Shown: in pieces, positions 36,798-52,803 of the stretch
How positions within the stretch are numbered: the stretch's first letter is position 1
How the letters are laid out: every line of letters starts with the position of its first letter
DNA from: Pseudovibrio axinellae
GTDB lineage: Bacteria; Pseudomonadota; Alphaproteobacteria; Rhizobiales; Stappiaceae
Reading direction: 5' to 3'
Assembly (NCBI RefSeq): GCF_900110875.1
Contig: NZ_FOFM01000009.1
Location: forward strand, 62,001 to 126,000
Length of the DNA stretch: 64,000 nt
Program-made: the position numbers and the translations under genes
The notes under the pieces: model-generated
Databases searched by the model: none
What the model saw: the letters and a program-made list of their open reading frames with translations, nothing else
What the model was told of the DNA's origin: nothing

Positions 36798-36813
36798 ACG
36801 GGTAACATCGACA

Positions 36814-38055
36814 ATGGAAAAGCCAGAGGCCGAGTACTTTCATAATGTGACAGCCGCGTTGAGAGCCCACGGTGTGTGCCAGCCTACGCTGGTTCTGGAC
36901 CTCACACGGCTGGACCATAATACAGAAGCAGCGATGTCCGTGGTTCGAAACGGCTATAATCTGCGGATCGTGACTAAATCGCTGCCTTCGCCCCCGCTCC
37001 TCTCTCATATTATGGAGAAAGCAGGCACGAAGCGGCTGATGTGCTTTCATATTCCGTTCCTGCTGGAACTGACCCGCACTTTCCCTTCCGCGGACATCTT
37101 GCTGGGCAAACCGATGCCAGCAAGTGCCGTAAAGTGGTTTTACGAACAACAAAGGCCTGCCGGTAACTCATTCGATCCGGCAAAAAGCCTTCACTGGCTC
37201 GTGGATAGTTTGGAGCGGCTGAAGGACTACGAAACGATAGCCCTTTCCCTCGGGCTGGACCTTCAAATCAACCTGGAAGTCGACATTGGTTTGCATCGGG
37301 GCGGTTTCTCCTATCAGAGCCATAAGGAGTTTGGTGAGGCGCTGGACTACATCCACAACTCCTCCTGCCTGCATCTTAGTGGCTTGATGGGCTATGATGT
37401 TTTTATCACCCACGTACCGCAAATTTTATGCGGGAAGCAGAAGTGCATTGAGGCCGCTCATACACGGTATCGGCAGTTCCGTGGGATGGTGGAGGCCAAA
37501 TTTACACCAGAAGACGTTGCAGGCATGAATTTCAATACAGGAGGGAGCACGACATACCCTTTGTACGATCAAGCTGGGCCTGCTAACGAAATCTCGATGG
37601 CCTCTGCACTCATTCAGCCAACTGACTTTGATAGAAAAGTGCTCTCGCATCATCAACCGGCAGCCTTCATTGCAGCACCGGTTTTGAAAGTCATCGACAA
37701 GCCACAAATACCCATGCTGCCCCGGCTTTCCAAGGTCCTGCGCATGACAGGCCAAGTACCGCACAAAGCCTGCTTTCTTTATGGCGGCAACTGGCTGGCT
37801 GAACCCTACTACCCAAGCGGGACGAAATGCTCTTCTTTGTTCGGGCGCTCCAGTAATCAAGAAATGTACGAGTTGCCGAGGGACAGTAACCTGAAAGTAG
37901 ATGACTACGTATTTTTCCGACCCACGCAGAGCGAAGCGGTTTTGTTGCAGTTTGGCGATATTGCTGCCTTCGATGGCACCAACATTGTCGACCGGTGGCC
38001 TGTATTAGGGCAAACCCATAAGGAACAAGAGGCGGGACTATGCTCATTATCCTGA
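36814..38055 (+). CDS. PLP enzyme of the D-threonine aldolase/D-serine dehydratase-like fold
   Basis: 413 residues with the alanine-racemase N-terminal barrel. The PLP Lys is likely Lys55 in LRIVTKSLPSPPLL. INLEVDIGLHRGGFS matches the conserved E-x-D-x-G-x-x-R-x-G segment, and NFNTGGSTTYPLY matches the PLP-phosphate-binding G-G-S-x-T of this family. The C-terminal metal-binding part (about residues 350-400) is less clear. Characterised relatives are D-threonine aldolase, D-serine dehydratase and 3-hydroxy-D-aspartate aldolase. Proteins of this subtype often adjoin ALO-family oxidases, but their substrate is not known to me. ATG 36814 lies 16 bases after the oxidase gene; the ribosome site is weak, so coupling is likely. 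The 3' end overlaps the DUF819 gene by 16 bases. Confidence 0.75.
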   Translation: MEKPEAEYFHNVTAALRAHGVCQPTLVLDLTRLDHNTEAAMSVVRNGYNLRIVTKSLPSPPLLSHIMEKAGTKRLMCFHIPFLLELTRTFPSADILLGKPMPASAVKWFYEQQRPAGNSFDPAKSLHWLVDSLERLKDYETIALSLGLDLQINLEVDIGLHRGGFSYQSHKEFGEALDYIHNSSCLHLSGLMGYDVFITHVPQILCGKQKCIEAAHTRYRQFRGMVEAKFTPEDVAGMNFNTGGSTTYPLYDQAGPANEISMASALIQPTDFDRKVLSHHQPAAFIAAPVLKVIDKPQIPMLPRLSKVLRMTGQVPHKACFLYGGNWLAEPYYPSGTKCSSLFGRSSNQEMYELPRDSNLKVDDYVFFRPTQSEAVLLQFGDIAAFDGTNIVDRWPVLGQTHKEQEAGLCSLS

Positions 38056-39221
38056 TATTGTTAATCATCCCAGCGTTTATGATTGCGCTGGCGCAAAAAT
38101 TTCCTTTGCTGGATCGGTTTGGCGTTGTCCAGCTAACTTTTGCTATTGGTTTTGTCATCGCGGCATTCGGAATCTTCGGCAATATTGACGAAGGCATGAC
38201 TACGCGCACGAGCCTGGCTGAAATCAGCGTGGCATTGGCTTTGCCCATGATCCTGTTTGCTTCAAACATTAAAAAGGCACTGAGTGACGCCCGCGAAGCA
38301 CTGCTTGCAATGGCGACTGCCGTATTCTCTGTCATCTTGGTGAGCTTTGTCGGCGTTCTCATCTTCTCCGAACAAATCAATGAAATCTGGCAGGTTTCCG
38401 GTATGGCGGCTGGAGCTTATACCGGTGGCGGCGTCAACATGGGGGCCATCAAGACCGCCATTAATGGCGATCACGATATTTTCCTGTCCATGGTCACCTA
38501 CGACATCATTTTTTCAGGCTTATACTTGCTAGTGATTTTGTTCTTTGGGCAAAAACTAGCAGGCTTGTTTCTGCGTCCCTATGAAGGCCGCAAGGCATTG
38601 GAACCGGTCGTGACAGACGATGCGGACCCAATGGCAGATGAAACTGCTCGTGGTTACAACCGTTTGCTCAAGGTCTCTGCGTTGCCAGGATCTGTTTTGT
38701 CACTTGTAGCGTCTGTGCTCATCGTTGGCGCTTCAGTTGGTATTTCTCAGCTCTTCTCCACGGAAGTCGCGCCGATCGTTATTATTCTCAGCATCACGAC
38801 ATTGGGCTTGCTAGGGTCTATGATCCCGCGCCTTCACGCCATCGCAACAAGCTTCCATCTGGGAATGTACCTGATTATGGTCTTTTGCGTGACCACGGCC
38901 ACCATGCTGGACATCTCAGTTTTCACCAATATCAACTGGGCACTCGGCGGCTACTTCACCCTGATCCTTGCCGGATCGATGTTGCTTCAGGGAATATTGT
39001 GCCGACTGTTTAACGTGGACCGCGATACCTATCTGATTGCCTCGGGTGCTGCCATCATGTCCGTACCGTTCATTCCCCTCATTGCAGGTGCCCTCAAAAA
39101 CCGGGAGATCCTCATTCCGGGTATTGCGATTGCGGTTATTGGCTATGCGCTCGCGAACTACATGGGCGTCATTGTAGCAACCGCCAGTCGTTCACTCATA
39201 GATACCGGGCTCCCCTTTTAA
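38040..39221 (+). CDS. DUF819-family membrane protein (putative transporter)
   Basis: 393 residues with about ten to eleven membrane segments in two halves. The first half has ALALPMILFASNIKKALSDAREALL and SGMAAGAYTGGGVNMGAIKTAI; the G-x-Y-T-G-G-x-x-N glycine-rich re-entrant-like loop is a hallmark of DUF819 (YjcL-like) proteins. The second half has LHAIATSFHLGMYLIMVFC and ASGAAIMSVPFIPLIAGAL. The family is uncharacterised; sequence layout suggests a secondary transporter distantly like the CPA/BASS fold. As the last gene of the TetR-controlled operon it is the probable transporter for the substrate or product of the PLP enzyme. Confidence 0.8.
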   Translation: MLIILILLIIPAFMIALAQKFPLLDRFGVVQLTFAIGFVIAAFGIFGNIDEGMTTRTSLAEISVALALPMILFASNIKKALSDAREALLAMATAVFSVILVSFVGVLIFSEQINEIWQVSGMAAGAYTGGGVNMGAIKTAINGDHDIFLSMVTYDIIFSGLYLLVILFFGQKLAGLFLRPYEGRKALEPVVTDDADPMADETARGYNRLLKVSALPGSVLSLVASVLIVGASVGISQLFSTEVAPIVIILSITTLGLLGSMIPRLHAIATSFHLGMYLIMVFCVTTATMLDISVFTNINWALGGYFTLILAGSMLLQGILCRLFNVDRDTYLIASGAAIMSVPFIPLIAGALKNREILIPGIAIAVIGYALANYMGVIVATASRSLIDTGLPF

Positions 39222-39255
39222 GAGTTGGACTGGTGCGAAACATTACATAGGCGGG

Positions 39256-39281
39256 GTGTTGCAACTAATATGACGCAACAC
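39256..39281 (+). terminator. Hairpin after the DUF819 gene
   Basis: GTGTTGC (39256-39262) and GCAACAC (39275-39281) form a 7-bp stem with a 12-base loop 35 bases after the stop codon. No T-run follows; it is a possible operon end or processing site. Confidence 0.35.
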
Positions 39282-39441
39282 TCCGTTCTCAAAACGAGAA
39301 TATACGGATAAGCTCTTGTTTTCAATTGCGAAAATGTCATCTACGAGCATCACTTCACAAGAAGCGCCTTAGGACTATCTGGAGGTGGCATAAGATCGCT
39401 GTAACAAGCTAAATTAGCGGGGGGATTACCATATAGCAGAT

Positions 39442-40212
39442 GTGCAGACAAATTTACCAGCGGAGACAACTGAGGAAGAGTTGTTTGACGCGATAACCAA
39501 TCAACTACATCTCTGTTATCAAACGCTGAACTTTCAAGCTATTCCGGAGGAACTTGGTTTCGGCATTTTTCAAGATCGCTGGAACAACTCCACCATTTCA
39601 TTGCAACAATATAGGAAAGAGTTTAGAAAAATCTGGGACGGGAAAAATTATCTCGATAAGTTTTATAAGATAAACGAGGGTGTTCTTAAACAGCTTCAAT
39701 CTTCTAGAATACTATGTCTGACCCGGTCCGCCTTCATGCATAATATGTGGGGGTATTACGGGGAAAGTCACAAGGGGGTGGCTTTGGAGTTTCAAGCTCC
39801 AATCTGTACTCAGTCGAGATTTACCCAAGCTTGGGAAGTAGATTATCTCGATCAGCCCCCTGTAATTGCAAGTTTGAATGACATCGTCGGATGGCTTTTT
39901 CAGCAGCTTGAGCCTCTTCCAACACAAATTGCAAGGGCAATGTTTACTACTAAGCACACCGATTGGCTGACTGAGAAAGAGTATCGAATAATCACCACGC
40001 GTGAGAATGCTAACTCGGATTTTGATGATCTCCCGTTTGAGGACAATGAGCTGAGAGCTGTCTAACTAGGCGCAAATATGTGCGACAGTAATAAGGACGA
40101 GATTTTGGAAATTGTTACAGAAAACTACGACTCCTCTGTAGCAGTAAAGAAAATCAAAAGGGTTGAGCGGAGCTATGGGCTTGAAGCAGTTGACCTAAAG
40201 TTCGCGCCCTAA
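39442..40212 (+). pseudogene. DUF2971 protein gene, 5'-truncated and cut by one nonsense codon
   Basis: The frame contains RILCLTRSAFMHNMWGYYGESHKGVALEF, the DUF2971 core (C-L-S-x-x-x-x-x-x-M-W-x-x-Y-x-x-x-H-K-G), then WEVDYLDQPP and TDWLTEKEYRII, all conserved family blocks. It stops at TAA 40063-40065 in ELRAV-stop, exactly where relatives read V-Y-L-G. In the same frame it goes on as LGANMCDSNKDEILEIV and YGLEAVDLKFAP to the real stop at 40210-40212. The N-terminal K-Y-x-x-F and W-F-S blocks of the family are missing, and a stop at 39415-39417 closes the frame upstream. DUF2971 proteins are frequent in accessory and defence regions; function is unknown. Confidence 0.75.
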
Positions 40213-40495
40213 CTGTGAACTTAGATTTGAAGCAGGGTACCCTTTCCCAAAAAAAGTGGTCAGCGCTAACCTCGTCTCGCATAAAATTACAAACGGGCGG
40301 TCACAGTTGATATGGAGCATTAGCCAGATACCTATCTACTAAAGCCCGCCTAAACCCGCCTTTCAGATCTTTGCAATCTCTCCATCGATACCATCTGCTC
40401 CAATATACAAATCATAACCGCGAGCATGGTCAAAACGTATTAAGCAGTGGCGGCTCGTTATCAGGGTAGCACGCGCCACCACACCAAGCAGATTG

Positions 40496-40954
40496 TTACA
40501 TGAGTTTTTGGGTTGTATCGGTTAAAAGCGCTTGCGGAACAGGGAGTCCAGAGACTGCAGCTTCGACTGTCATTTCGTCAAGCACTTGAAGAAATGCGTT
40601 TGACGCACGGTGCATCAACGGCTTTAGCCGGCACGATGGAAGAAAGCAGCATTGGACGTCTTCAGGCTTCTGGTGCCGCAGGCATTCAACGACTGCAAAG
40701 TCGCTTTCAACGGCTCGTACTACATCACCGACCGTAATTTCTTTCGCATTTCGGCCAAGTTTGAAACCACCTCCGCGCCCGCGCATCGTCTCAAGGATCC
40801 CTGCATGTGAAAGCTGGTTGACCAACTTCATCACATGTCCTTTAGAAAAACCCTGCTGAAGGACGACCTGGTCGATCCGATGATTGGTCTCGGGTTGCAT
40901 GGCACACTGCATAACGAGTCGCAAAGCGAAATCACTTGCCTGATTTAAGCGCAT
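40496..40954 (-). CDS. nsrR: Rrf2-family regulator, NsrR-like (nitric oxide sensor)
   Basis: 152 residues. The winged helix MRLNQASDFALRLVMQ, SKGHVMKLVNQLSHAGILETMRGRGGGFKLGR and ITVGDVVRAVE are typical of NsrR rather than IscR (the R-G-R-G-G-G-F-x-L motif). Cys91, Cys102/Cys103 and Cys108 (VVECLRHQ, VQCCFLPSCRLK) are the likely iron-sulfur ligands; the first gap is longer than the usual C-x(5-7)-C. NsrR proteins repress NO-detoxification genes and release DNA when NO attacks the cluster. GGAG lies seven bases before the ATG at 40954. An NsrR-type operator lies just upstream and the same motif precedes the small ORFs at 41180, which suggests that this regulator controls both itself and that unit. 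Confidence 0.8.
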   Translation of the reverse strand: MRLNQASDFALRLVMQCAMQPETNHRIDQVVLQQGFSKGHVMKLVNQLSHAGILETMRGRGGGFKLGRNAKEITVGDVVRAVESDFAVVECLRHQKPEDVQCCFLPSCRLKPLMHRASNAFLQVLDEMTVEAAVSGLPVPQALLTDTTQKLM

Positions 40955-40966
40955 AGAGAGGCTCCA

Positions 40967-40989
40967 AAGATATATTCTGTATGTATCAT
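40967..40989. promoter_or_regulatory. NsrR-type operator upstream of the Rrf2 gene
   Basis: A 23-bp element of 11-1-11 layout, with left arm AAGATATATTC (40967-40977), one spacer base and right arm GTATGTATCAT. The left arm is identical to that of the element at 41140-41162. The layout agrees with the published NsrR consensus type (AAGATG-Y-ATTT and its inverse). It starts 13 bases upstream of the start codon, suiting autorepression. Confidence 0.6.
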
Positions 40990-41139
40990 AATATCATAAT
41001 TTTCGAAAACTCAATTCGCTTGATCAGATCCAACCTGTTTAACATATTGAAAAAACAATATTTATAGAAGCCATCGATTCAAAATTCAAAGGCTAAAAGA
41101 TCTAAAGTAAATATTTCTTTTAGTCGAAATTATGTGCTA

Positions 41140-41162
41140 AAGATATATTCAATGTATATCTT
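41140..41162. promoter_or_regulatory. NsrR-type operator upstream of two small membrane-protein genes
   Basis: Left arm AAGATATATTC (41140-41150), one base, right arm ATGTATATCTT (41152-41162). The outer eight bases of each arm (AAGATATA and TATATCTT) are perfectly inverted. It is 17 bases upstream of the ATG at 41180 and shares its left arm with the site next to the Rrf2 gene. Confidence 0.65.
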
Positions 41163-41179
41163 ATAGTGGAGGTGCATCA

Positions 41180-41401
41180 ATGTTACCAGCCATAGTCTTG
41201 ATAGCTGAAGTACTCGCTGTTGCGTGGTTTGTTATCTTCTTGACGATGATAACGAGCACATATCTTGACGGGAGAAGCTACGGTCTAGGAAAGAAAAACA
41301 AGGTAGAGCTGGCCTTTCTCAGGCATATCCGCATCTTCGTAATAATCGGGGTTTCTACCGCTTGCCTTCTGTCACTTGCAGATGCTTTCGAAATGATCTG
41401 A
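41180..41401 (+). CDS. Small two-helix membrane protein under the NsrR-type operator
   Basis: 73 residues with GGAGG eight bases before the ATG. Two hydrophobic helices (about residues 3-25 and 50-66, AIVLIAEVLAVAWFVIFLTM and IFVIIGVSTACLLSLADAF) flank a basic loop with GLGKKNKVE and HIRIF. I recognise no family. The single-site upstream context and close spacing to a second tiny ORF suggest a NO-inducible membrane subunit or regulator. Inner-membrane location with the basic loop in the cytoplasm is likely. Confidence 0.65.
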   Translation: MLPAIVLIAEVLAVAWFVIFLTMITSTYLDGRSYGLGKKNKVELAFLRHIRIFVIIGVSTACLLSLADAFEMI

Positions 41402-41419
41402 CGGCTAACGGAGAGACAT

Positions 41420-41512
41420 ATGAAAATATACAACTACCTACCCGCTTTATTTATCTGGGGTATCGTCCCTGCGCCATTATGGATCTGGTTATGCCTGTCT
41501 TTCCTGATCTAA
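41420..41512 (+). CDS. 30-residue membrane micro-protein
   Basis: ATG 41420 to TAA 41510-41512, preceded by GGAGAG at normal spacing and only 18 bases after the previous gene. The product starts MKIYNYLPALFIWGIVPAP and ends IWLCLSFLI: one Trp-rich hydrophobic helix of 20 or more residues. Micro-proteins of this kind often are accessory subunits of cytochrome oxidases or transporters (for example CydX-like), but no known family motif is seen. It is probably cotranscribed with the 73-residue protein gene under the NsrR-type site. Confidence 0.5.
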   Translation: MKIYNYLPALFIWGIVPAPLWIWLCLSFLI

Positions 41513-41581
41513 GCCGCACCTAAAGACCACACAGATCTGCGAGTAACAAATGAAATTTGCTGGGTATTGCATCCAGCCGAA

Positions 41582-41617
41582 GAAAAGCCAGAAGCGGGGG
41601 TGCCCTCCGTTTCTGGC
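41582..41617 (-). terminator. Strong rho-independent terminator of the VOC gene
   Basis: A 14-bp stem with two G-U pairs, GCCAGAAGCGGGGG (41587-41600) and CCTCCGTTTCTGGC (41604-41617), with a three-base loop. Read on the minus strand it is followed by TTTTCTT (41580-41586). It lies directly after the VOC gene ending at 41643 and also insulates the small-ORF unit that runs the other way. Confidence 0.85.
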
Positions 41618-41642
41618 GCAATTTCACTCAAGCAAATAGTGG

Positions 41643-42005
41643 CTAACAGTGGAAATTTAGCTTGTTGCCATCAGGGTCTCTGCAATAGGCACCGTAAAAC
41701 GATTCACCGCGCAGCCCAGGAGCTCCTTCATCGTCAGCCCCCAACCCCAGCGCAATCGCGTGCATTTCGTCTACAGTTTCCTTATCAGGCACACGTAACG
41801 CCACCATGCTGCCATTGCCAAAGCTGGCATCATGGCCATCAAACGGGGTGTTGAGGACGATCAACGGTTTGTCTTTCCCAAACCCCCAAGCAAATAGCTT
41901 ATCATTTTCATAAAGTCGTTTCGCGCCAATTTTTTCCAAAATGGCATCATAAAATGCACAGGCGCGTGTTAGGTCGTTTGTGCCCAAAGTAACATAGCCG
42001 ATCAT
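41643..42005 (-). CDS. VOC-superfamily protein (glyoxalase-like)
   Basis: 120 residues from the ATG at 42005 with AGGA seven bases upstream. IGYVTLGTNDLTRACAFYDAILEKIGAKRLYEN opens the first beta-alpha-beta-beta-beta unit with the usual N-D-L-x-x-A-x-x-F-Y-D. SFGNGSMVALRVPDKETVDEMHAIALGLGADDEGAPG forms the second unit, ending YGAYCRDPDGNKLNFHC with the terminal D-P-D-G-N-x-L. This is a well-known lactoylglutathione-lyase-like group of about 120 residues. The substrate is unknown. A longer reading to 42179 has no support. Confidence 0.8.
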   Translation of the reverse strand: MIGYVTLGTNDLTRACAFYDAILEKIGAKRLYENDKLFAWGFGKDKPLIVLNTPFDGHDASFGNGSMVALRVPDKETVDEMHAIALGLGADDEGAPGLRGESFYGAYCRDPDGNKLNFHC

Positions 42006-42200
42006 GAGGTATCCTGATCTAATTGATGTACTTGAAAATTCATAAAAGCGAGCGCAGAACCCGCCTGGAGACCTAAGTAAACAACATGGATGCCGTAAAG
42101 TAAACAGAAGACTGGAGCATGCGACAGGTGTCTTTTTTAGAGAGCTGGGCTTGCGCAGGCATAAACTGAAACCGGACATCTACCTGCGGCAGGTAGGTGG

Positions 42201-42233
42201 GATCCGTGGCAGGCGCAAAGCTCCCCACGGATC
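42201..42233. repeat. Inverted repeat downstream of the flavoprotein gene
   Basis: GATCCGTGG (42201-42209) and CCACGGATC (42225-42233) form a 9-bp perfect stem. A second small palindrome, TACCTGC and GCAGGTA, lies just left (42181-42195). They follow the stop of the minus-strand flavoprotein gene (42257) and may end or protect its mRNA; there is no T-run. Confidence 0.45.
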
Positions 42234-42256
42234 GAGTTTATCAAATCATGGATTCA

Positions 42257-43999
42257 TCAACCGGAAGCTGGCCATGCATCAAAGTTTTGCTTTTCAAACT
42301 GCATGCCCCCTTTTTCATCCTGCCACATATTGATCCAGGCCTGCCAGTTCTCAATATCCACCTCAGGGTAATCCAAGCGATAGTGACCGCAACGACTTTC
42401 GGTACGCATGATTGAAGCCTTGAGTTTCATCTCAGCCGTTATAATCATGTTCTCCGTTTCATGAGCCAGACGCAAGCGATGCAAGTCATCTGCCACAAGC
42501 ATAGGCACGTGGTGGTCCCGAAGTTCTTCCACATAAGCCAAAGCACCTTGCATCATGCGTTCTTTCTTCATGTAAAGCACAAAGTTCGGAATCATAACGC
42601 CTTGCAAGACCTGCGTGACCCATGCTGGGCTGTAGCCTCTTTCGCGAACGAGCGGGGCGAGCATTTCTTGTTGTACACGTTTGAGCTGCTGGTGGGAGGC
42701 AAAGAGATCTTTGGCGTCTTTACTGGCCTTAGCTGCTGCTTCGCCCGCAATTGCCCCTTGTACCGCTGACCCAGTTATCGGCGCCCCCATCTGGTTAAAA
42801 ATACACCCCTGCATGTAGGAGCCGAGCGCATCACCAGCTGCATAAAGCCCAGGAAGAGTCGTCAAACCCGCTTCGTCTATCGGTACGAGCCCTTCCGCCT
42901 TGTGCATGGCCATACCAGCCGTTGAGCCTCCAACAAGTTCCCTGTTCGGATCAGGAGCAGTCGAGGTCATGTTCTTAGTCAGACCAAGCAAACCACCTGT
43001 CTCATCAGGGGCGGGCGCTGGGTCAAAACTTCTATAGCCCTCCGGAGCATGAGGCGCGTCATCTTCGCTTGTATGCTCCATCTTTTCAGGCGTACGCGCC
43101 GTAACAGGTCCGCCCTTTGTGTAGGCTTCATAGTTCAACGCCATACTGTGATGGTAGGTGATATCCTCTGCAATCACGGAAGGCATTTGTTCTGTACGGC
43201 CATTCCAGTTGTCGTAGCTGGATCCGGAATCCTCCGCAGTTGTCAGCCGACCGTCGTTCCACTCCTTACCAGTCACCTTTGCCCCGATTTTGTACGCCAT
43301 AATCGTACCATCGTGGGTAAGGTCACTAATCGGATAACCATTGGGCTTGAATGCGCCAGCACCAGTGCAAAGGATGGTTGTTTTGGTGTGGAAGTGTATC
43401 ACCTTGTTTTCATTCAAGCTGAAACCAGATGCACCGACAACGCGCCCTTTTTCCTTCAAAAGGTGAGTGATCATCACCCTTTCGTGCAAGGGAATCTCGC
43501 GCTCATTTATAGGGCGCATAAAACTCTCATTGTACAATGGCGAGTTGAAGAAGCCCCATTTCTTTAAGTCATATATCCGCTCTGCCGAATGTTCTGCCAA
43601 TTGGCGGGTGAACACTGGGTTATTGGTATAGACCGAGGACTTTGAAATGTTCTTCACAAAGTCATCAACACTCATCGTGCTGTTGTCTTTGTCAAAGCTA
43701 TAAAATCTCTTCGCGTGAGGTGTCAGGCCCGAGGCGCCTAGGCGTCCCTTCGACACCATAGTAACATGCGCCCCGTTGTCATGCGCGTTTACCGCTGCAA
43801 ACAAGCCTGCCATGCCCCCACCGATGATCAAAACATCCGTTTTGTGCTGCTCGACGGTAAACTCACCTGGTGCCGCCTTGCGCGGGTTTTGTTCCACAAC
43901 ACCAGCTTGTGTTGGAAGTGAGGAAAGGGCCGCCGTACCAAGAATGCCGCCTGCAGCCCCAAAAAGCTGCCGCCGTGAAAGATTCAGTTTATTCGTCAT
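42257..43999 (-). CDS. Tat-signal FAD-dependent reductase/dehydrogenase of the FrdA/AprA type
   Basis: 580 residues. The N-terminus LNLSRRQLFGAAGGILGTAA is a twin-arginine signal (Arg9-Arg10). The FAD-binding domain has DVLIIGGGMAGLFAAVNAHDNGAHVTMV (about residues 55-82), ILCTGAGAFKPNGYPISDLTHDG in the succinate dehydrogenase/fumarate reductase pattern and GLYAAGDALGSYMQGC near the C-terminus. The helical tail has MRTESRCGHYRLDYPEVD, as in the AprA and SdhA tail R-x-E-S-R-G-x-H-x-R-x-D. There is no FMN-binding or heme domain. Substrate is unknown: the catalytic Arg/His set cannot be assigned by eye. The adjacent ferredoxin gene ends five bases upstream, so the pair probably forms an AprAB-like complex, perhaps exported together. 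GGAGAT precedes the ATG. Confidence 0.75.
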   Translation of the reverse strand: MTNKLNLSRRQLFGAAGGILGTAALSSLPTQAGVVEQNPRKAAPGEFTVEQHKTDVLIIGGGMAGLFAAVNAHDNGAHVTMVSKGRLGASGLTPHAKRFYSFDKDNSTMSVDDFVKNISKSSVYTNNPVFTRQLAEHSAERIYDLKKWGFFNSPLYNESFMRPINEREIPLHERVMITHLLKEKGRVVGASGFSLNENKVIHFHTKTTILCTGAGAFKPNGYPISDLTHDGTIMAYKIGAKVTGKEWNDGRLTTAEDSGSSYDNWNGRTEQMPSVIAEDITYHHSMALNYEAYTKGGPVTARTPEKMEHTSEDDAPHAPEGYRSFDPAPAPDETGGLLGLTKNMTSTAPDPNRELVGGSTAGMAMHKAEGLVPIDEAGLTTLPGLYAAGDALGSYMQGCIFNQMGAPITGSAVQGAIAGEAAAKASKDAKDLFASHQQLKRVQQEMLAPLVRERGYSPAWVTQVLQGVMIPNFVLYMKKERMMQGALAYVEELRDHHVPMLVADDLHRLRLAHETENMIITAEMKLKASIMRTESRCGHYRLDYPEVDIENWQAWINMWQDEKGGMQFEKQNFDAWPASG

Positions 44000-44003
44000 A
44001 ACG

Positions 44004-44219
44004 TTATCTCCACGCAACCATTACCGGCACAGACTTTTCCGGATTGATAGAAATAGCATCAACCGGGCAATACAGACGGCACAAATGGCAAATCTGACAG
44101 TCTTCTGGGTAAGCAATAAAGGCCTTCTTGTTTTCCTGATCCATCTGAATAACGTCAGTCGGACACGTCTCAACGCAGGTCTGGCACCCTATGCAGCCCG
44201 AAATTTCACTGATGGGCAT
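44004..44219 (-). CDS. 2[4Fe-4S] ferredoxin-type subunit
   Basis: 71 residues with two complete cluster motifs, CIGCQTCVETCP (Cys9, 12, 15, 19) and CQICHLCRLYCP (Cys41, 44, 47, 51), both C-x2-C-x2-C-x3-C-P. It has no signal peptide, so it acts in the cytoplasm or is carried out by its Tat-signalled partner. It lies between the membrane oxidoreductase gene and the flavoprotein gene with gaps of 23 and 4 bases and so is almost certainly their electron-transfer partner. Its size and position resemble the small iron-sulfur subunit AprB beside AprA, though AprB is longer. Confidence 0.85.
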   Translation of the reverse strand: MPISEISGCIGCQTCVETCPTDVIQMDQENKKAFIAYPEDCQICHLCRLYCPVDAISINPEKSVPVMVAWR

Positions 44220-44242
44220 AAAATTGACTTTCTTGTTTCATT

Positions 44243-45625
44243 CTAAAAGGAGAGCTGTTCGAAATTGACGTGCTTATCGCGGACTTGCAGGCCCTTGAGG
44301 TGGCCGCAAACTGCATTCACCATTGGCTGTGGTCCGCACAGATAGAAACACCAGTCCTCAATCTCGTGACTCTCTAGATTTTGCTGAATCGACACACGGT
44401 CGATGAAACCTTGGTAGACCCCTGGTTGCTCAGTGGCCTGCGCGCACACCAGTTGCTGACAGAAGTCGGACATTGTCTGTTCCAACGCTGTGATTTCGTC
44501 CTGACACACCATCTGCTCAAACTGGTTATTGCCGTAAATGAGGCGAATAGGGCGCTGATCATTCCGTGCGGCAAGCTTTCTCAGCATTCCGAGCATCGGC
44601 CCAATTCCTGCCCCGCCAGCAATGAGAACAATACCTTTGGCTCTTTCGCAGCACCGCAAACTAACGCTTCCATAAGGTCCGTCGACGTAAACATCTTGAC
44701 CGATGGTCAGATCGCCTAGCTTCGAAGTGTAATCTCCCAGTTCACGAATGAGGAACGACAGATAAGGAAGGTTCTCCCGACAGGAGGCAATGGAAAACGG
44801 GTGTTCGTTAACGCCGTGCGCACTACCGCTGGTGTTGATCCATGCGAACTGTCCTGCCTCAAAATCAAACTTGGCATCATCGGATTTTTCAAGAGTAAGC
44901 TCCCAGTCTGAGCTACTAACCTTCTTGATGTTGGCTAGTTTAAAAGGCCGGCTTTTCAACTTCCGCGGTTTCAGCAAGTAATTATAGCCAACCATTGCAA
45001 GAGAACCTGAGCACAGGAAAAGCCACAAGACGTTAAACATTGGCTGGAACTGCCCGTGTCGACCAACACCGGTAATGTGCAAAGTCGCGAGGGTCGCGAT
45101 TACCACAAACCCAAGCATGTGGGTAAAGCGCCAAGTCTCGTATTTGATCGGTAGCTTATTCTTGAAGATAGATGTCAGAATCCAAAGGACCATGATCCCC
45201 CACGCGACGACACCAGTCAGCGATTGAGGGGCTGTCAAAAGCTCGTAGGCGCTGGTCATTCCCACATCAAAGGAAACAAAAAATCGCGGAGCAAGAATAA
45301 GAAATGGATGGAGGAAGAATATATATCCGAGCCATTTCCCAACTTGTCTGTGCCTGGTCATACTCCAATCAATATTGGCAAAGAGCCCGATAGCCTTGAT
45401 CCGACTACCAAGAGGGAACTGGATGAAAAACGCCATCATCGCGATGCTGTTTATCAGAGCAAGAATTGCCCCGTACCATCCCTTATTATCCATCCCAAGC
45501 ATGTACGTTGCGGCATATGGAAGTATGAGGAGAGAGAGATACCCCATCGCTAACTGTGTTTTTCGTCCAGTCCCGAAAATGGAAGCTCCATTTAAACGAG
45601 AGGGCATAGCTATCTGGCCCACCAT
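44243..45625 (-). CDS. NOX/ferric-reductase-like transmembrane NAD(P)H oxidoreductase
   Basis: 460 residues. The N-terminal half has six membrane helices with two bis-His heme pairs in exact H-x13-H spacing: His92/His106 (HRQVGKWLGYIFFLH) and His169/His183 (HMLGFVVIATLATLH). The C-terminal half is an FNR-type dehydrogenase: HPFSIAS (FAD, about 275-281), GGAGIGPMLGMLR (337-349) and YLCGPQPMV (428-436, NAD(P) binding). This is the layout of NADPH oxidases and ferric reductases, moving electrons from cytosolic NAD(P)H through FAD and two hemes to the outer face of the membrane. It begins the operon with the ferredoxin and Tat flavoprotein. AGG lies nine bases before the start; an internal ATG at 45607 is possible. 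Confidence 0.8.
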   Translation of the reverse strand: MVGQIAMPSRLNGASIFGTGRKTQLAMGYLSLLILPYAATYMLGMDNKGWYGAILALINSIAMMAFFIQFPLGSRIKAIGLFANIDWSMTRHRQVGKWLGYIFFLHPFLILAPRFFVSFDVGMTSAYELLTAPQSLTGVVAWGIMVLWILTSIFKNKLPIKYETWRFTHMLGFVVIATLATLHITGVGRHGQFQPMFNVLWLFLCSGSLAMVGYNYLLKPRKLKSRPFKLANIKKVSSSDWELTLEKSDDAKFDFEAGQFAWINTSGSAHGVNEHPFSIASCRENLPYLSFLIRELGDYTSKLGDLTIGQDVYVDGPYGSVSLRCCERAKGIVLIAGGAGIGPMLGMLRKLAARNDQRPIRLIYGNNQFEQMVCQDEITALEQTMSDFCQQLVCAQATEQPGVYQGFIDRVSIQQNLESHEIEDWCFYLCGPQPMVNAVCGHLKGLQVRDKHVNFEQLSF

Positions 45626-46161
45626 AGTATTTACCTAATCTCTTTCCAACGGCCCACCCAACACTAAATCAAGTATTACTAAGACCAAAAACAACATTCA
45701 TTATTCACGAACAATGGCGTACTAATAAATATTATTGATTCTTTAAATAGAAAATATGTGGATTCACATAAAATATTATTTACACTTATACTATACAACT
45801 TCTTATTTACTACTAATAAAATTGTATTAAAAATTATCTTCTTATACTGATTTGATATTTACTAGCCATTACATAAATATTTAATCATATACCCAAAAAC
45901 GGCAGAAGATTCGTAATTCCAACGATTTCAAAGGAACTCACCAGCAAGGTGAATGCTTATTGAGGGGGTTCTAGGAGAGCGGGAATAGGGTATTTTTCTT
46001 GCTTTTCCCGAGCTTACAAGCTTGCTGTACATGTGTAACAGCGTCTAAATACAAAGAAGTAGGCTCAGATTATCAACCTGAAGCGAAACACTACACTTGT
46101 GTATAAACCAGTAAAACTTTCGTCGAACTAGTCAGCTCTATTATTTTTGTGAGGGGAAAAG
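45626..46161. other. AT-rich intergenic region upstream of the NOX-like operon
   Basis: About 535 bases without a gene; 45690-45900 is extremely AT-rich. It should carry the promoter of the minus-strand operon. No copy of the NsrR-type arm AAGATATATTC is seen here, so control by NsrR is not shown for this operon. Confidence 0.5.
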
Positions 46162-46237
46162 TGGTGCCCGAAGGCGGATTCGAACCACCGACACGCGGAT
46201 TTTCAATCCGCTGCTCTACCAACTGAGCTATTCGGGC
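46162..46237 (-). tRNA. tRNA-Phe (GAA)
   Basis: A complete 76-base tRNA with encoded CCA on the minus strand. The acceptor stem is GCCCGAA with TTCGGGC, D arm GCTCAGTTGGTAGAGC, anticodon stem GCGGA and TCCGC with loop TTGAAAA, so anticodon GAA (Phe), then T loop TTCGAAT. Every stem pairs perfectly. Such tRNA ends are common integration sites, but I see no integrase or repeated 3' end nearby. Confidence 0.97.
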
Positions 46238-46446
46238 ACTTTCTGCTGGGCGGGTTTGTTTCCGTCCTGCGAAGGTGAGCGTCTTATAGGGTGCCAATTT
46301 TCTCCTGTCCAGCGGCCAAATGCATTTTTTTGGAAAGAAACCAAGTTTCTCCACTGCCAGCTTACTGAATATTCATAAGCCCCTTAAATCATGAGGTTTT
46401 TTGCGGCTTATAAACGCGCTGATACATCTGAAAAGACTATCCTACA

Positions 46447-47841
46447 TCAAACAGGAGCCCCATTTTCAGAAATATCCCAGAACAACGCCGCCATATTACG
46501 AAGGGCGTCTCGGGCAACAGGTTTCAAGATATGCTCGTTAGGCGCATGTTGGGAACACCCTGCATATGAATGCGGAACCCACACTGTTGGCAGACCCAGC
46601 GTATCAGCAAAACACTCATTAGGAAGAGACCCGGCCAGATTCGGGAGCAAGTGGACTTTCTTACCACTGGTTCTTTCCAGAGAAGCCACTGTCATTTGCA
46701 CCCATGGGTCTTTTGTAGAAAGGCGGGAAGCTTTAAAGTAGCACCGCTCGTCTTGTTGGATCTCCACATCCTTAAACCCATACGCATCCAAATGTTCCCT
46801 GAGTGCTGGAATGATGTTGTCTGGGTCGGTGCCCACCACAAATCTAAGCTGGCAGGTTGCAAATGCAACACCGTCAATTGCGTTTACCGGCGCTTCAGGA
46901 ACCCCAGATTTTAAAGCAAGCACAGCAAATGAGTTCCAGCCATAAGCCCGTTCTGCTGGCGTAAGGCCCTTCTCCCCCCAGTCTTTGCTGATTTCCGGTC
47001 CTCGTGCATCCCCAACTGGCAAACCTTTCAAGGATTCGCGAATTTCTGGCGTCAAACTATCTGGGCGCCATGCGGGAATATGGATTTGCCCACGCTCATC
47101 TACTATTGAGGAAATCGCATGGGCCAAAATAATCGCTGGATCGGCAAGCAAGCCGCCCCAGTTCCCAGAGTGGTTTGCCCCTTCACGCAATTTCACCTGC
47201 AAGGTAAAAGTTTGTGCCCCGCGCACGCCAGTAAACACTGTTGGCGTATCAGCCTGCAAACGCGGACCATCAGAGGCAATTAGAACGTCCGCTGAGAGTA
47301 AATCTTGATGATCCTCGAAGAATTCCAATAGTCCCGCGGACCCTGTTTCCTCAGAGGTTTCAATTATGACCTTGCAGTTGAAGCCCAATTTCTCTTTATC
47401 CTGAAGAAGGCACTCAAGTGCTTTCAGGTTGATCAGGTGTTGGCATTTGTTATCTGCCGTACCGCGCCCGTATACTCGCTCGCCATCTTCTTTCAGAACG
47501 AACGGATCCAGATCATCCCTCCAGCTTCCGGCCTGCCCACGAACGACGTCGCCATGACCGTAAGTGAGTATGGTTGGCAGGTCTGGGTCCTCAATTCGTT
47601 CTGCGACCAGAAAGGGGCCGCCGGTTGAAACGGGGTTTTCAAAAATCCGGACTTCAAATCCAAGCTGCTCAAGAAGTGGCTGCACCTCTTGTGTCAGGTA
47701 ACGCATCAGCTGATGTTTTTGAGAGGGTTTCTGACTTTCTGTCGGGATTGCGATAAGCCGCGCCAAGTCGGATAGGAATTCACCACTGTCAAAGTAGGCT
47801 TCCGCTCTTTTTATTACCTCATTACGGCTTGTCATCATCAT
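46447..47841 (-). CDS. M20-family metallopeptidase (dipeptidase-like)
   Basis: 464 residues of the M20 family. Metal and catalytic elements: LTYGHGDVVRGQ (first metal His and Asp), GRGTADNKCQHL (bridging Asp with the G-R-G-x-x-D-x-K of the CNDP group), ETSEETGSAGL (general base Glu and metal Glu) and the late SQHAPNEH (metal His). The lid domain carries GANHSGNWGG. The protein should hydrolyse dipeptides or N-acyl amino acids in the cytosol with two zinc ions. Three ATGs in a row (47841, 47838, 47835) share the AAGG upstream; the third gives the best spacing. It is separated from the pcaF operon by a hairpin. Confidence 0.85.
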   Translation of the reverse strand: MMMTSRNEVIKRAEAYFDSGEFLSDLARLIAIPTESQKPSQKHQLMRYLTQEVQPLLEQLGFEVRIFENPVSTGGPFLVAERIEDPDLPTILTYGHGDVVRGQAGSWRDDLDPFVLKEDGERVYGRGTADNKCQHLINLKALECLLQDKEKLGFNCKVIIETSEETGSAGLLEFFEDHQDLLSADVLIASDGPRLQADTPTVFTGVRGAQTFTLQVKLREGANHSGNWGGLLADPAIILAHAISSIVDERGQIHIPAWRPDSLTPEIRESLKGLPVGDARGPEISKDWGEKGLTPAERAYGWNSFAVLALKSGVPEAPVNAIDGVAFATCQLRFVVGTDPDNIIPALREHLDAYGFKDVEIQQDERCYFKASRLSTKDPWVQMTVASLERTSGKKVHLLPNLAGSLPNECFADTLGLPTVWVPHSYAGCSQHAPNEHILKPVARDALRNMAALFWDISENGAPV

Positions 47842-47897
47842 TCACCTTGTCAGCTGCCTTGTGCTACTCGTGATCTACAAAACGACCGATATTTCGC

Positions 47898-47943
47898 TTG
47901 AGCGCCGCCGATCCACGGATAGTCGGCGCTCAAGTTACGAAAT
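47898..47943 (-). terminator. Hairpin after the pcaF operon
   Basis: TTGAGCGCCG (47898-47907) and CGGCGCTCAA (47934-47943) form a 10-bp perfect stem about 35 bases after the pcaF stop. No strong T-run follows on the minus strand. Probably the operon end. Confidence 0.5.
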
Positions 47944-47978
47944 GCAGAAAGTTAAGCTTCTAGCGAGGTCACTGCCTA

Positions 47979-49184
47979 TCAATCTCTTTCAAGTGCAATT
48001 GCAATCCCCTGCCCTACGCCAATACACATGGTTGCCAACGCTCGTTTTTTACCTTGCAGGCTGAGTTCAAGAGCAGCCGTTCCAGTAATCCGCGCGCCAG
48101 ACATCCCCAACGGATGACCTAATGCAATCGCACCGCCATTTGGGTTGATATGCTCGGAAGATTCATCCAGACCCAACTCCCGCAACACCGCAATGCCCTG
48201 ACTTGCGAAGGCTTCGTTCAGTTCAATGACATCAAAGTCGGCAGGTTCCAGCCCCAAACGACCACAAAGTTTCTTGGCAGCAGGTGCTGGGCCAATACCC
48301 ATAATACGTGGAGCAACACCCGCTGTCGCACCACCTAATACACGTGCAATCGGGGTCAAACCATATTTTCTCACAGCAGCTGCCGAAGCCACAATCAACG
48401 CAGCAGCACCATCATTCACCCCGGATGCATTGCCTGCCGTAACGCTTCCGTTCTCGCGAAATGGAGTTGGAAGCTTTGCAAGTTTTTCAGCAGTTGTGCC
48501 TGCACGTGGGTGCTCGTCATTTGAAACGATGATTGGATCCCCTTTTCGCTGAGGGATCGTTACATCCAAAATCTCTCGTGCCAGGCGGCCGTTTTCTTGT
48601 GCTGCCGCTGCTTTCGCTTGCGAACCAGCTGCAAATGCATCCTGATCAGCACGGGAAACGCCATAATCTTCAGCGACGTTCTCCCCAGTCTCTGGCATGC
48701 TGTCGATACCGAATTGCTTTTTCATCTTCGGGTTTACAAAACGCCAGCCGATGGTGGTATCGAATACTTCGCTTGACCGTGAAAACGGTGAGGTTGCTTT
48801 TGGCATCACAAACGGTGCCCGGGACATAGATTCAACACCGCCCGCAATCACCAAGTCACACTCACCCGTTTTGATGGCGCGAGATGCAGCGATGATCGCA
48901 TCCATTCCGGACCCACACAGCCGATTAAAGGTTGTACCTGGAACCGCCTCTGGCAAACCAGCCAACAAAGCAGCCATGCGTGCTACGTTTCGGTTATCTT
49001 CACCAGCCTGATTGGCGCAGCCGTAATAGACTTCATCAACGGCCTCCCAATCGACGGAAGAGTTTCGCTCCATCAGCGCTTTAATCGGCAGTGCTCCAAG
49101 GTCATCTGTACGCACAGAAGAGAGCGCTCCGCCATAACGGCCAATTGGTGTTCTAATATAATCGCAAATATATGCCTCAGACAT
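47979..49184 (-). CDS. pcaF: 3-oxoadipyl-CoA/3-oxo-5,6-dehydrosuberyl-type thiolase
   Basis: 401 residues, a canonical thiolase with all catalytic groups: FNRLCGSGMDAI (nucleophile Cys90), ELNEAFASQ, INPNGGAIALGHPLGMSGAR (His) and ATMCIGVGQGIA (second Cys). The sequence GHPLGMSGAR and the start MSEAYICDYIRTPIGRYGG are typical of beta-ketoadipyl-CoA thiolase PcaF/CatF, which splits 3-oxoadipyl-CoA into succinyl-CoA and acetyl-CoA. Its start overlaps the catJ stop by one base, which supports the assignment, because the CoA transferase makes its substrate. PaaJ of phenylacetate catabolism is a close alternative, but no paa genes are here. Confidence 0.85.
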   Translation of the reverse strand: MSEAYICDYIRTPIGRYGGALSSVRTDDLGALPIKALMERNSSVDWEAVDEVYYGCANQAGEDNRNVARMAALLAGLPEAVPGTTFNRLCGSGMDAIIAASRAIKTGECDLVIAGGVESMSRAPFVMPKATSPFSRSSEVFDTTIGWRFVNPKMKKQFGIDSMPETGENVAEDYGVSRADQDAFAAGSQAKAAAAQENGRLAREILDVTIPQRKGDPIIVSNDEHPRAGTTAEKLAKLPTPFRENGSVTAGNASGVNDGAAALIVASAAAVRKYGLTPIARVLGGATAGVAPRIMGIGPAPAAKKLCGRLGLEPADFDVIELNEAFASQGIAVLRELGLDESSEHINPNGGAIALGHPLGMSGARITGTAALELSLQGKKRALATMCIGVGQGIAIALERD

Positions 49185-49975
49185 CAGGCCGTCTCCACTT
49201 TGTTACCCGCCTGCGCCGCCGCCGTTCGCGCTTTAAGTGCGCGCAGAACAGACAACTCCTCCTCAGTCGGCGCAGGGGTTTCCTGCAAATCATCGCTGAA
49301 ACGTACAGCCCAAGACACTGTTTGTTGCACCCGTTCTTTCGTCGTACGCGGATGCAATGAGACGACTGTCAGCTCTTTGGTGACAGGATCCGGCTTCCAA
49401 ATAGCAAGGTCGGTGATGAGCAAAGTCGGCCCTTTGCTTGCAATACCCATACGCGCACGATGGTCTCCACCCTCTCCGTGACCGAACGATGTGAAGAAGT
49501 CGATCTTTTCCACAAAGCCACGTTTACTCTGTTTCATGGTGATATAAATCTCCTGCGAGGACGAGGCGATCTCTGGCGCACCCCCACCCCCTGGCAGTCT
49601 CACTGTCGGGTGTTCGTAATCACCAACAACGGTTGTGTTGATGTTGGCAAAGCGGTCGATCTGAGCAGCCCCCAAAAAACCCACCGTGATTTTGCCGCCC
49701 TGCAACCAATAGCGAAACATTTCTGGAACAGAGACCGTGGTCAAAGCGGTATCGCACAGCTCACCATCGCCGATAGAAAGCGGCAAAACATCAGGCGCGG
49801 TACCAATGGTGCCACTTTCATAAATCAGCGTAATGTCTGGAGCATGTGTCAAACGGGCAATGTTGCATGCAGCGGAGGGAGGGCCGATCCCGACAAAACA
49901 AACATCGGTGTTCGTTAAAGCACGCGAGGCAGCAATTGCCATCATCTCATCAGGGGTGAAGTCCAAATCACTCAT
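49184..49975 (-). CDS. catJ: 3-oxoadipate CoA-transferase subunit B (CatJ type)
   Basis: 263 residues of the glutaconate-type family I CoA transferase beta subunit. LIYESGTIGTAPDVLPLSIGDGEL contains the E-S-G element with the catalytic Glu position, and GGKITVGFLGAAQIDRFANINTT plus LPGGGGAPEIASS are family landmarks. Together with CatI it transfers CoA from succinyl-CoA to 3-oxoadipate. The gene overlaps catI by four bases (ATGA) and pcaF by one. IpdB-like hydrolases of steroid degradation have the same fold, but the pcaF linkage favours the beta-ketoadipate pathway. Confidence 0.8.
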   Translation of the reverse strand: MSDLDFTPDEMMAIAASRALTNTDVCFVGIGPPSAACNIARLTHAPDITLIYESGTIGTAPDVLPLSIGDGELCDTALTTVSVPEMFRYWLQGGKITVGFLGAAQIDRFANINTTVVGDYEHPTVRLPGGGGAPEIASSSQEIYITMKQSKRGFVEKIDFFTSFGHGEGGDHRARMGIASKGPTLLITDLAIWKPDPVTKELTVVSLHPRTTKERVQQTVSWAVRFSDDLQETPAPTEEELSVLRALKARTAAAQAGNKVETA

Positions 49976-50826
49976 TGGGTCACCTCCAGACCTTTTATGC
50001 GATCAGCAAAAACACCAGGGTCTTGCTTCAAAACATGCTCTTCCATCCATGCCTGGAATTTCCCCCGATCAACCGCAATTGTATCCCAATCAATATAGGT
50101 TTTGTTGTCCCGGCGATAATAGCCCTGCGTATATGAAGGATGCGCCCCACCTGGAACCTCGCAAATTGCAGAGACTGCCCAATGAGGTAAAATCGTTGCG
50201 TTCATGTGCGTATCCAGATCATCAACAATCTCTTCAACTGTCACGATGGAGCTTTTTGCAGCCATCACGGCTTCTTTCTGTACACCCAGGATCCCCTCAA
50301 TAAGCACATTCCCTTTTCGGTCTGCCTTGAGGGCGTGAATGAATGCAACATCTGGCAGAACTGAAGGAACTGCGGCGAGTTCTTCGCCTGTAAAAGGGCA
50401 CGTGATGGATTTGATATTGGGATTTACACGCTGAAGGTCTGTCCCAAGGTAGCCCCGAAAAACCGCGCAAGGCAAGCCTGCAGCTCCGGCTTCATACGCA
50501 TTGGCAAGCGCGGCGTGAGAGTGTTCTTCAAGTGTGATAGAGCGCGGCCAGCCATTTTCGACAGCGTCACGTACGCGGCGCAACAACCCAACTCCTGGGT
50601 TGCCCGCGTAAGAAAAAATCATTTTCTTGACGAGGCCCATGCCGATCAGCTGATCATAGATAAGATCAGGCGTCATACGTATAACAGTCAGCTCATCAAT
50701 GCCTTGCCGTATGACTTCGTGGGCAGCAGCGTGGGGAATAAGGTGCGTAAAGCCTTCAAAAGCAGCGCTATCACCGCTTTTAAGGTACTTGGTTACAGCA
50801 TCCTTTAAGGAAAGAAATTCAACCAT
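49972..50826 (-). CDS. catI: 3-oxoadipate CoA-transferase subunit A (CatI type)
   Basis: 284 residues of the alpha subunit of the same transferase family. Landmarks are AAFEGFTHLIPHAAAHEVIRQG (the G-G-F/F-x-x-x-x-P-x-x-x-x-x-E-x-x-R motif), MIFSYAGNPGVGLLRRVRDA, ITLEEHSHAALANAYEAGAAGLP, and HALKADRKGNVLIEG near the middle. The ATG at 50826 begins MVEFLSLKDAV, though its ribosome site is poor. It is the first gene of the catI-catJ-pcaF operon, which converts 3-oxoadipate to tricarboxylic acid cycle intermediates. Genes for ring cleavage (pcaGH, catA, pcaD) are not in the window. Confidence 0.8.
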   Translation of the reverse strand: MVEFLSLKDAVTKYLKSGDSAAFEGFTHLIPHAAAHEVIRQGIDELTVIRMTPDLIYDQLIGMGLVKKMIFSYAGNPGVGLLRRVRDAVENGWPRSITLEEHSHAALANAYEAGAAGLPCAVFRGYLGTDLQRVNPNIKSITCPFTGEELAAVPSVLPDVAFIHALKADRKGNVLIEGILGVQKEAVMAAKSSIVTVEEIVDDLDTHMNATILPHWAVSAICEVPGGAHPSYTQGYYRRDNKTYIDWDTIAVDRGKFQAWMEEHVLKQDPGVFADRIKGLEVTQ

Positions 50827-52652: not shown

Positions 52653-52734
52653 TAATTCTGCTGACTTGTGAACACGTTCGCATCTGCATATCAAGAAATA
52701 TCCAGAAAACAAATTAGTCTTTATTGGAATAAAG

Positions 52735-52762
52735 TTGACATTGATAAAATATATAAGATTAT
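52735..52762 (+). promoter_or_regulatory. Sigma-70-type promoter of the AfuABC operon
   Basis: A perfect -35 box TTGACA (52735-52740) is followed after 16 bases by GATTAT (52757-52762), an acceptable -10 box. Transcription would start about six bases on, inside the LacI-type palindrome at 52767-52780. This arrangement is typical of repression by steric block. Confidence 0.55.
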
Positions 52763-52766
52763 TGTA

Positions 52767-52780
52767 TGTACACGTGTACA
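52767..52780. promoter_or_regulatory. LacI-type operator
   Basis: TGTACACGTGTACA is a perfect 14-bp palindrome with the central CG typical of LacI-family operators. It lies 24 bases before the binding-protein gene, immediately after the predicted -10 box, and on the far side from the LacI gene. Confidence 0.75.
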
Positions 52781-52803
52781 CAACGTGTTTGGGAGGAGTT
52801 AAT

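Follow-up and report, generated by a model that had tools for sequence, protein, structure and literature searches.

The closest working precedent for the genes described here is the 8-methylmenaquinol:fumarate reductase (MFR) of Wolinella, SdhABE. Its hydrophilic subunits are exported by the twin-arginine translocation (Tat) system, in contrast, according to a passage of the report on this enzyme, to all other previously characterised members of its superfamily (PMC2680327); in an excerpt from a second report, MfrA of Campylobacter provides a further precedent for a Tat-exported MFR (PMC4148689). Export of subunits that carry no signal of their own, as hitchhikers, is illustrated in part of a third source by PaoABC and hydrogenase 2 (PMC4273604). 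We analysed a trio of minus-strand genes in a 64,000-nucleotide stretch of contig NZ_FOFM01000009.1 (positions 62,001 to 126,000; the window), which encode a NOX-like membrane protein, a small ferredoxin and a flavoprotein related to FrdA and AprA. AprA and its partner AprB, a 2[4Fe-4S] ferredoxin, are cytosolic. Judging from the sequences, we favour on balance the view that the trio is an extracytoplasmic reductase with a private electron feed, in which Tat would carry an AprAB-like pair across the membrane in folded form and a membrane conduit would supply its electrons. A preliminary description of this DNA held that known periplasmic enzymes of the fumarate reductase kind use c-type hemes or FMN domains instead; it overlooked the Wolinella enzyme, the nearest precedent, and has to be corrected in view of the Tat export reported in the passages cited above (PMC2680327, PMC4148689).

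The features of the trio, all on the minus strand, are as follows.

44243..45625, minus strand: NOX-like membrane protein, 460 amino acids (open reading frame (ORF); Pfam Ferric_reduct, FAD_binding_8 and NAD_binding_1, all above gathering cut-offs)
45089..45442, minus strand: ferric-reductase transmembrane domain, residues 62-179, with heme His92, 106, 169 and 183 (Pfam, sequence)
44246..44944, minus strand: FAD- and NAD(P)H-binding part of the NOX-like protein, residues 228-460, with HPFS, GGAGIGP and CGPQPM motifs and a C-terminal Phe (Pfam, sequence)
44004..44219, minus strand: 2[4Fe-4S] ferredoxin, 71 amino acids, without export signal (ORF; Pfam Fer4 and Fer4_7 above gathering cut-offs)
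42257..43999, minus strand: FrdA/AprA-like FAD flavoprotein, 580 amino acids, with twin-arginine signal (ORF; Pfam FAD_binding_2 and Succ_DH_flav_C above gathering cut-offs)
43901..43999, minus strand: predicted Tat signal peptide of the flavoprotein, RR being residues 9-10 (sequence; family conservation)
42779..42799, minus strand: putative active-site loop of the flavoprotein, residues 401-407, FNQMGAP against the family consensus YTQIGSS (placed by alignment with FrdA)

The genes follow one another in the order NOX-like protein, ferredoxin, flavoprotein, with intergenic gaps of 23 and 4 bases, and all three frames are open. The 580 residues of the flavoprotein, whose N-terminus reads MTNKLNLSRRQLFGAAGGILGTAALSSLPTQA, are counted from the ATG at 43999; the ORF list begins the same frame at an upstream TTG (44017). 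In the NOX-like protein the heme histidines of each pair, His92/106 and His169/183, stand 14 residues apart (H-x13-H), and two bis-His heme sites are combined with FAD and NAD(P)H domains, as in the NOX/ferric reductase superfamily. Its HPFS, GGAGIGP and CGPQPM motifs and terminal Phe we take to be FAD/NAD(P)H-binding signatures. Solved relatives of the dehydrogenase part include the ferric reductase 5o0x/8cak and the oxidoreductase 8qq5, presumably NOX5 and SpNOX. Among the best 25 of the 26, 78 and 84 NCBIfam models listed for the three proteins, none reached its cut-off, and the same held among the matches listed for the proteins of relatives that were examined, namely three flavoproteins, one NOX-type protein and three of the short di-heme kind. 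The makeup of the trio and its H-x13-H pairs had been correctly recognised in the preliminary description; in agreement with its proposal of a new system, no curated NCBIfam model shown claims the trio.

Conservation of the trio was assessed in 84 loci (L numbers), comprising the best 80 of 180 relatives found by a profile (alignment) scan of genome contigs together with those of Paracoccus, Ilyobacter, genome G035 and the window. A scan of genome contigs with the single protein confirmed no relative; a plasmid protein search returned relatives in Paracoccus seriniphilus (53.6% identity) and in Ilyobacter polytropus (39.7%), and in both a ferredoxin is encoded close to the flavoprotein. Partner genes were sought by profile search of the six-frame translation, on the same strand and within 4 kb of the flavoprotein, with models derived from the loci themselves. 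The resulting counts thus describe presence and are no independent test. The ferredoxin adjoins the flavoprotein in 81 of the 84 loci, a di-heme protein does so in 77, and both are found in 76. Chance grouping is ruled out by this retention of all three genes, and the co-occurrence search that had been proposed came out positive. The parts are accordingly not, as had been thought, ones that are not normally seen together: the combination recurs in 76 of the 84 loci, which come from nine phyla (Pseudomonadota, Bacteroidota, Thermodesulfobacteriota, Campylobacterota, Spirochaetota, Calditrichota, Fermentibacterota, Omnitrophota and, through Ilyobacter, Fusobacteriota), and in most cases the di-heme protein is of a short kind. 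At least one partner was not found in eight loci (L040, L082, L084, L093, L098, L101, L102 and L113), and in L093 and L098 the flavoprotein stands at the start of a contig. Many strain names of carriers, as we read them, suggest a marine or saline origin. In the window's own class the flavoprotein was found in one of 385 genomes drawn, the window genome itself; among 61 near relatives of that genome, 37 gave some match, and a long match was seen only in the window genome (G000) and G035. Database labels in the Paracoccus and Ilyobacter records are generic ("FAD-binding protein", "ferric reductase-like transmembrane domain-containing protein", "4Fe-4S dicluster domain-containing protein", "ferredoxin family protein"), and no title or abstract start among the matches listed from the open-licence PMC literature was about the trio.

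All four heme histidines are conserved as His in 77 of 77 di-heme proteins, window included, and so is His190. The membrane protein comes in two main forms. A NOX-type protein with a frame of 460-513 residues is present in 17 loci, including the window; 13 of these match the pattern GG[AT]G[IV][AGT]P, and L048, L049, L051 and L055 were counted by frame length and tree position without such a match. Two more loci, L104 and L119, had entered a first tally of 19 by frame length and were dropped, their long frames being upstream extensions. The other 60 loci encode a short di-heme protein without an NAD(P)H domain, with frames of 207-301 residues from stop to stop except in L104 and L119. In the flavoprotein tree, made by a quick method, the 17 NOX-type loci group as a single branch (SH-aLRT 100), and they do so again (100/100) in a tree based only on the transmembrane domain. 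Because long branches separate the NOX and short kinds in the latter tree, it is more likely that the NOX protein replaced the short one than that it arose by simple fusion. In Ilyobacter, a NapH-like protein with an FMN domain lies near the flavoprotein-ferredoxin pair, and the fetched stretch yielded no di-heme gene.

From this arrangement we infer the following path. Cytosolic NAD(P)H would reduce the FAD of the NOX-like protein, and electrons would cross the membrane via the two hemes to the ferredoxin; bound to the flavoprotein in the way AprB is bound to AprA, the ferredoxin would pass them on to the FAD of that protein, an enzyme that would reduce an extracytoplasmic substrate. The pair would already be folded, loaded with cofactors and assembled in the cytosol before being exported together by Tat, the ferredoxin as a hitchhiker. 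An outward path of this kind, leading through a NOX-type protein to a flavoprotein outside the membrane and with the ferredoxin probably hitchhiking, had been put forward before and still appears to be the best reading. The sequences themselves establish the three parts and their joint conservation, the conserved twin arginine, the heme ligands, the switch of conduit from lineage to lineage and the link to tatC in spirochaetes; the direction of flow, the docking, the export of the ferredoxin and the reductive reaction are deduced from them. The reverse direction, in which the flavoprotein would be an exported dehydrogenase and the di-heme protein would pass electrons to quinone or NAD(P)+, is distinctly unlikely. 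Enzymes of the FAD_binding_2 family do include dehydrogenases, and the short di-heme proteins lack an NAD(P)H domain, but the known members with NOX architecture transfer electrons outward, and the NapH-like/FMN protein of Ilyobacter resembles a kind of protein that serves as donor to periplasmic reductases.

The ferredoxin is uniform across the family: it has 69-76 amino acids in 80 of the 81 loci where it was found, the 2[4Fe-4S] pattern in 79 and a penultimate Trp in all 81. In none of the 81, window included, does RRx[FL] occur within the first 30 residues. The 71-residue window protein, with two 4Fe-4S cysteine motifs, is the signal-less 2[4Fe-4S] ferredoxin it had been described as. A ferredoxin of this kind might also stay in the cytosol and carry electrons to the membrane di-heme protein, with the flavoprotein alone being exported; this would agree with the missing signal and would supply the donor that the short di-heme partners (60 of 77), devoid of an NAD(P)H domain, must have. 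We nevertheless think it unlikely, as the NOX clade retains the ferredoxin despite an NAD(P)H domain of its own, ferredoxin and flavoprotein stay paired in five loci in which no di-heme gene was found (L040, L082, L101, L102, L113), and the analogy with AprAB favours a docked pair.

As expected of a Tat substrate, a conserved twin arginine followed by a hydrophobic stretch was detected by rule in 79 of the 84 flavoproteins and, with L039, in 80, in keeping with the signal originally described for the window copy. The motif has the form RRxF in 79 cases and RRxL in the window. A TatC is encoded in the window genome. Furthermore, a tatC-like gene lies behind the flavoprotein genes in L040 (Ilyobacter, where tatA/tatC genes follow its three flavoproteins), L075, L086, L092 and L102, and in L087 the position of TatC is that of the gene behind the flavoprotein. 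In four of five spirochaete genomes (L075, L087, L092, L102) the only TatC found is directly behind the flavoprotein, and the start of the flavoprotein alone matches Pfam TAT_signal at E <= 1; the fifth, G477, has a second TatC and three such matches. Of the 119 genomes in the order of G088, two were found to have TatC, and it is these two that also carry the flavoprotein, next to TatC; both were known carriers, one of them the centre of the draw, and the informative part is the other 117 genomes, with neither. Most genomes in the spirochaete survey are metagenome bins, in which genes may be missing. Because TatC and the flavoprotein co-occur in the same two of 119 genomes, Tat dependence of the flavoprotein is supported, and this coupling in spirochaetes is its best independent support. 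A DNA pattern for Tat motifs was discarded as too loose, its matches falling below its own control in every genome. In Ilyobacter (L040:8989-13996) three tandem flavoproteins of the family accompany one ferredoxin; because a Tat signal is present only on the third, a cytosolic form of the flavoprotein may exist.

By profile, the nearest solved relatives of the flavoprotein are AprA chains, followed by succinate dehydrogenase and the alpha subunit of PAPS reductase. Residue conservation was counted over 67 flavoproteins. In the alignment with E. coli FrdA, the histidine of HxxMGG falls on His366 and the arginine of N-R-L on Gln403, each present in 67 of 67, the alignment of the cap domain being weak. 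The arginines of R-G-E-G and N-R-L are catalytic in FrdA, and both motifs are nearly absent here (R[GA]EG in 3 of 67, NR[LM] in 1 of 67). As these arginine motifs are missing, the substrate is probably not fumarate, which is an argument and no proof given the weak cap-domain alignment. Likewise, since an SHTVA-type flavin-binding histidine motif occurs in none of the 67, the FAD is probably not covalently bound. It seems very unlikely that the trio serves respiration by reducing a fumarate-like organic acid, as a variant of MFR or of flavocytochrome c: membership of an FrdA/AprA-like family and the invariant His366 would suit such an enzyme, but the arginine motifs are nearly absent, Gln403 aligns with the N-R-L arginine throughout, and the carriers include the aerobic genera Maribacter and Winogradskyella. 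The NCBIfam models also speak against it, with 43.8 bits against a cut-off of 1100 for MFR and 63.8 against 854 for quinol fumarate reductase. In its favour, MFR is likewise exported by Tat with an iron-sulphur subunit, as stated in parts of the two reports (PMC2680327, PMC4148689). The flavoproteins of many relatives have a variable Gly/Pro-rich insertion, at about residues 298-357 of the window protein, that is weak or absent in the window copy; it echoes Gly/Pro-rich stretches in neighbouring secreted proteins and in one histidine kinase.

Several observations weigh against an exported reductase pair, in the window or in the family. The window signal has Leu where the family has Phe, and the window flavoprotein is missing from the list of Pfam TAT_signal matches (E <= 1), 21 of which were obtained in G000. 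No twin arginine is present in L084 and L089 or in the first two flavoproteins of Ilyobacter, the frame of L079 begins past the motif, and L098 is cut off. Among 26 genomes of the order of G478, five contain seven full TatC genes, and the flavoprotein, sought only within the fetched 1.5 kb of TatC, accompanies three of the seven and not the other four; in G479 (Omnitrophota) and G480 (Fermentibacterota) the only TatC is on another contig. The signal-less ferredoxin may act as a donor in the cytosol, at least in the loci whose di-heme protein has no NAD(P)H domain. A fusion of ferredoxin and flavoprotein, which would have demonstrated export, was found in 0 of 84 loci, the ferredoxin match never falling within the flavoprotein frame; the long flavoprotein frame read in L041 is an upstream extension over other genes. 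Finally, none of the 67 flavoproteins diverges more than that of the window, in which 24 of 217 near-invariant columns are changed (11 in the next worst), including H251R, H282Y and the change of YTQIGSS to FNQMGAP near the presumed active site. Given this divergence, the window copy may use another substrate, or its function may have shifted or be decaying. The idea of a pseudogene in the window was rejected, all three frames being open; with the flavoprotein so divergent, its function may still be relaxed or shifted.

In both trees the window copy nests inside the NOX branch, the other 16 rows of which belong to families that we take to be gammaproteobacterial. The alphaproteobacterial kind (11 copies, including G035 from the window's own family) forms a separate branch with the short di-heme protein. 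The genes neighbouring the window trio have their best partial DNA matches in Phyllobacterium, Methylocella, Chelatococcus and Rhizobium (66-67% identity over 63-64% of the query), so the host, with a genome of 5.13 Mb, looks alphaproteobacterial. Because the window copy nests among gammaproteobacteria while its neighbours look alphaproteobacterial, we read the trio as acquired by horizontal transfer. A glyoxalase-like gene and, farther off, an Rrf2-type regulator lie downstream of it, and an M20 peptidase gene lies upstream. In the 20 kb that were clustered (36001-56000), the sole non-trio gene with relatives in other loci (L091 and L108) is 51621-52913, which by eye looks like a LacI-type regulator. 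Elsewhere in the window (35343-39221, plus strand), what looks like a single operon encodes a further Tat-signal flavoprotein (ALO/FAD_binding_4), whose signal Pfam TAT_signal does list, and then an alanine-racemase-like protein and a DUF819 membrane protein.

In other phyla the trio keeps different company. Flanking-gene clusters, named after one or two tested members and counted over the 84 loci, comprise response regulators (30), histidine kinases (21), CotH kinases (21), Lcl_C (DUF1566) proteins (17), LytS-type histidine kinases (15), LTXXQ-like Gly/Pro-rich secreted proteins (14), VTC (11) and DUF4956 (11). CotH kinase, VTC polyphosphate polymerase, DUF4956, DUF2490 or Cthe_2159 genes adjoin the trio in Bacteroidota and in a Calditrichota bin (L059, L065, L074, L088, L106, L112 and others). 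CotH was followed up in 23 genomes, 14 of them preselected for CotH at the locus and the L059 genome left out. It was present in 16 of the 23, with a copy within about 10 kb of the trio in 15, and this was the only CotH gene in six genomes (G067, G069, G070, G071, G074, G075). Of the nine genomes that had not been preselected, seven, the window's included, have no CotH; in G069 it is about 9.6 kb away and in G063 on another contig. Lcl_C was found in all 18 genomes searched, 16 of which had been preselected for the Lcl_C cluster near the trio: every match is inside the fetched locus in G077, G081 and G090, the other preselected genomes have extra copies elsewhere, and the Lcl_C genes of G035 and the window genome are on other contigs. 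The presence of CotH, Lcl_C and Gly/Pro-rich secreted proteins beside the trio suggests a surface or matrix role in these phyla, a link that is absent from the window. Also near the trio, in 8 of the 84 loci, is a small secreted-looking family (cluster 14) with GPPPEA...C.GK..GD-like motifs and at least three cysteines (L064:8762-9010, L079:8857-9246, L082:6151-6459, L089:5053-5433 and four others); two members tested had no Pfam match. YHYH-domain proteins occur near it in L054:9872-11608 and L118:3805-4875.

A bolder proposal, which we regard as doubtful, is that the trio is a mobile redox cassette moving across phyla, with exchangeable conduits (short di-heme, NAD(P)H-driven NOX, NapH/FMN) and a Tat-exported AprAB-like pair that in some spirochaetes would use a translocon without any other Pfam-detectable substrate. 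The pair would act on surface or matrix proteins (CotH kinase, Lcl_C lectin-like, EF-hand, Gly/Pro-rich) or on a compound that these handle, by a chemistry outside the known FrdA/AprA reactions. As to the extracytoplasmic reductase itself, it would be a conserved redox module of at least nine phyla that has been hidden under generic labels, adding a route for reducing power across the membrane and showing one exported enzyme pair wired to different membrane donors. It would also allow the co-export of a ferredoxin by Tat to be tested in a natural setting and, in spirochaetes with TatC found only beside the flavoprotein, would offer something near a single-substrate Tat system.

Compared with known systems, the trio shares with MFR (SdhABE/MfrABE) an FrdA-like flavoprotein with a Tat signal and an iron-sulphur partner, export being predicted here; MFR differs in catalysing fumarate reduction and in its iron-sulphur subunit, which is larger than the trio ferredoxin. 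According to passages of the Wolinella report, the FAD of MFR is non-covalent in the unmodified enzyme, to which the lack of an SHTVA-type motif here (0 of 67) is a parallel, and the membrane partner SdhE has cysteine-rich motifs and no NOX (PMC2680327). AprAB and PAPS reductase resemble the trio in that AprA chains are the nearest by profile and a flavoprotein is paired with a small 2[4Fe-4S] ferredoxin; unlike them, the trio flavoprotein has a middle part (profile positions 217-370) that does not align to AprA, and scores fall short of the aprA (72.4 against 641.75 bits) and aprB (35 against 135.65 bits) models. The di-heme transmembrane domain, H-x13-H pairs and FAD/NAD(P)H domain are those of the NOX/ferric reductase superfamily, but here they are tied to a ferredoxin and an exported flavoprotein, and direct reduction of O2 or Fe(III) would not be expected. 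In contrast to MsrPQ and the MsrQ-like flavinylation systems (Meheust 2021), the trio has no FMN-binding or ApbE gene. Three short di-heme proteins (L057, L066, L039) matched no NCBIfam model, MsrQ included, and no MsrP-type molybdoenzyme stood out in the clustered neighbourhoods, no MsrP-directed search having been made. CotH, polyphosphate polymerase and DUF4956 are described in part of PMC7112168 as accessory genes of Gram-positive Pel loci; genes of these kinds are also found in several Bacteroidota and the Calditrichota bin, where their company is the redox trio, whereas in the Gram-positive loci it is the Pel exopolysaccharide genes. The novelty lies in joining an AprAB-like pair to Tat export and exchangeable conduits, in how widely the set occurs, and in the link with tatC seen in spirochaetes.

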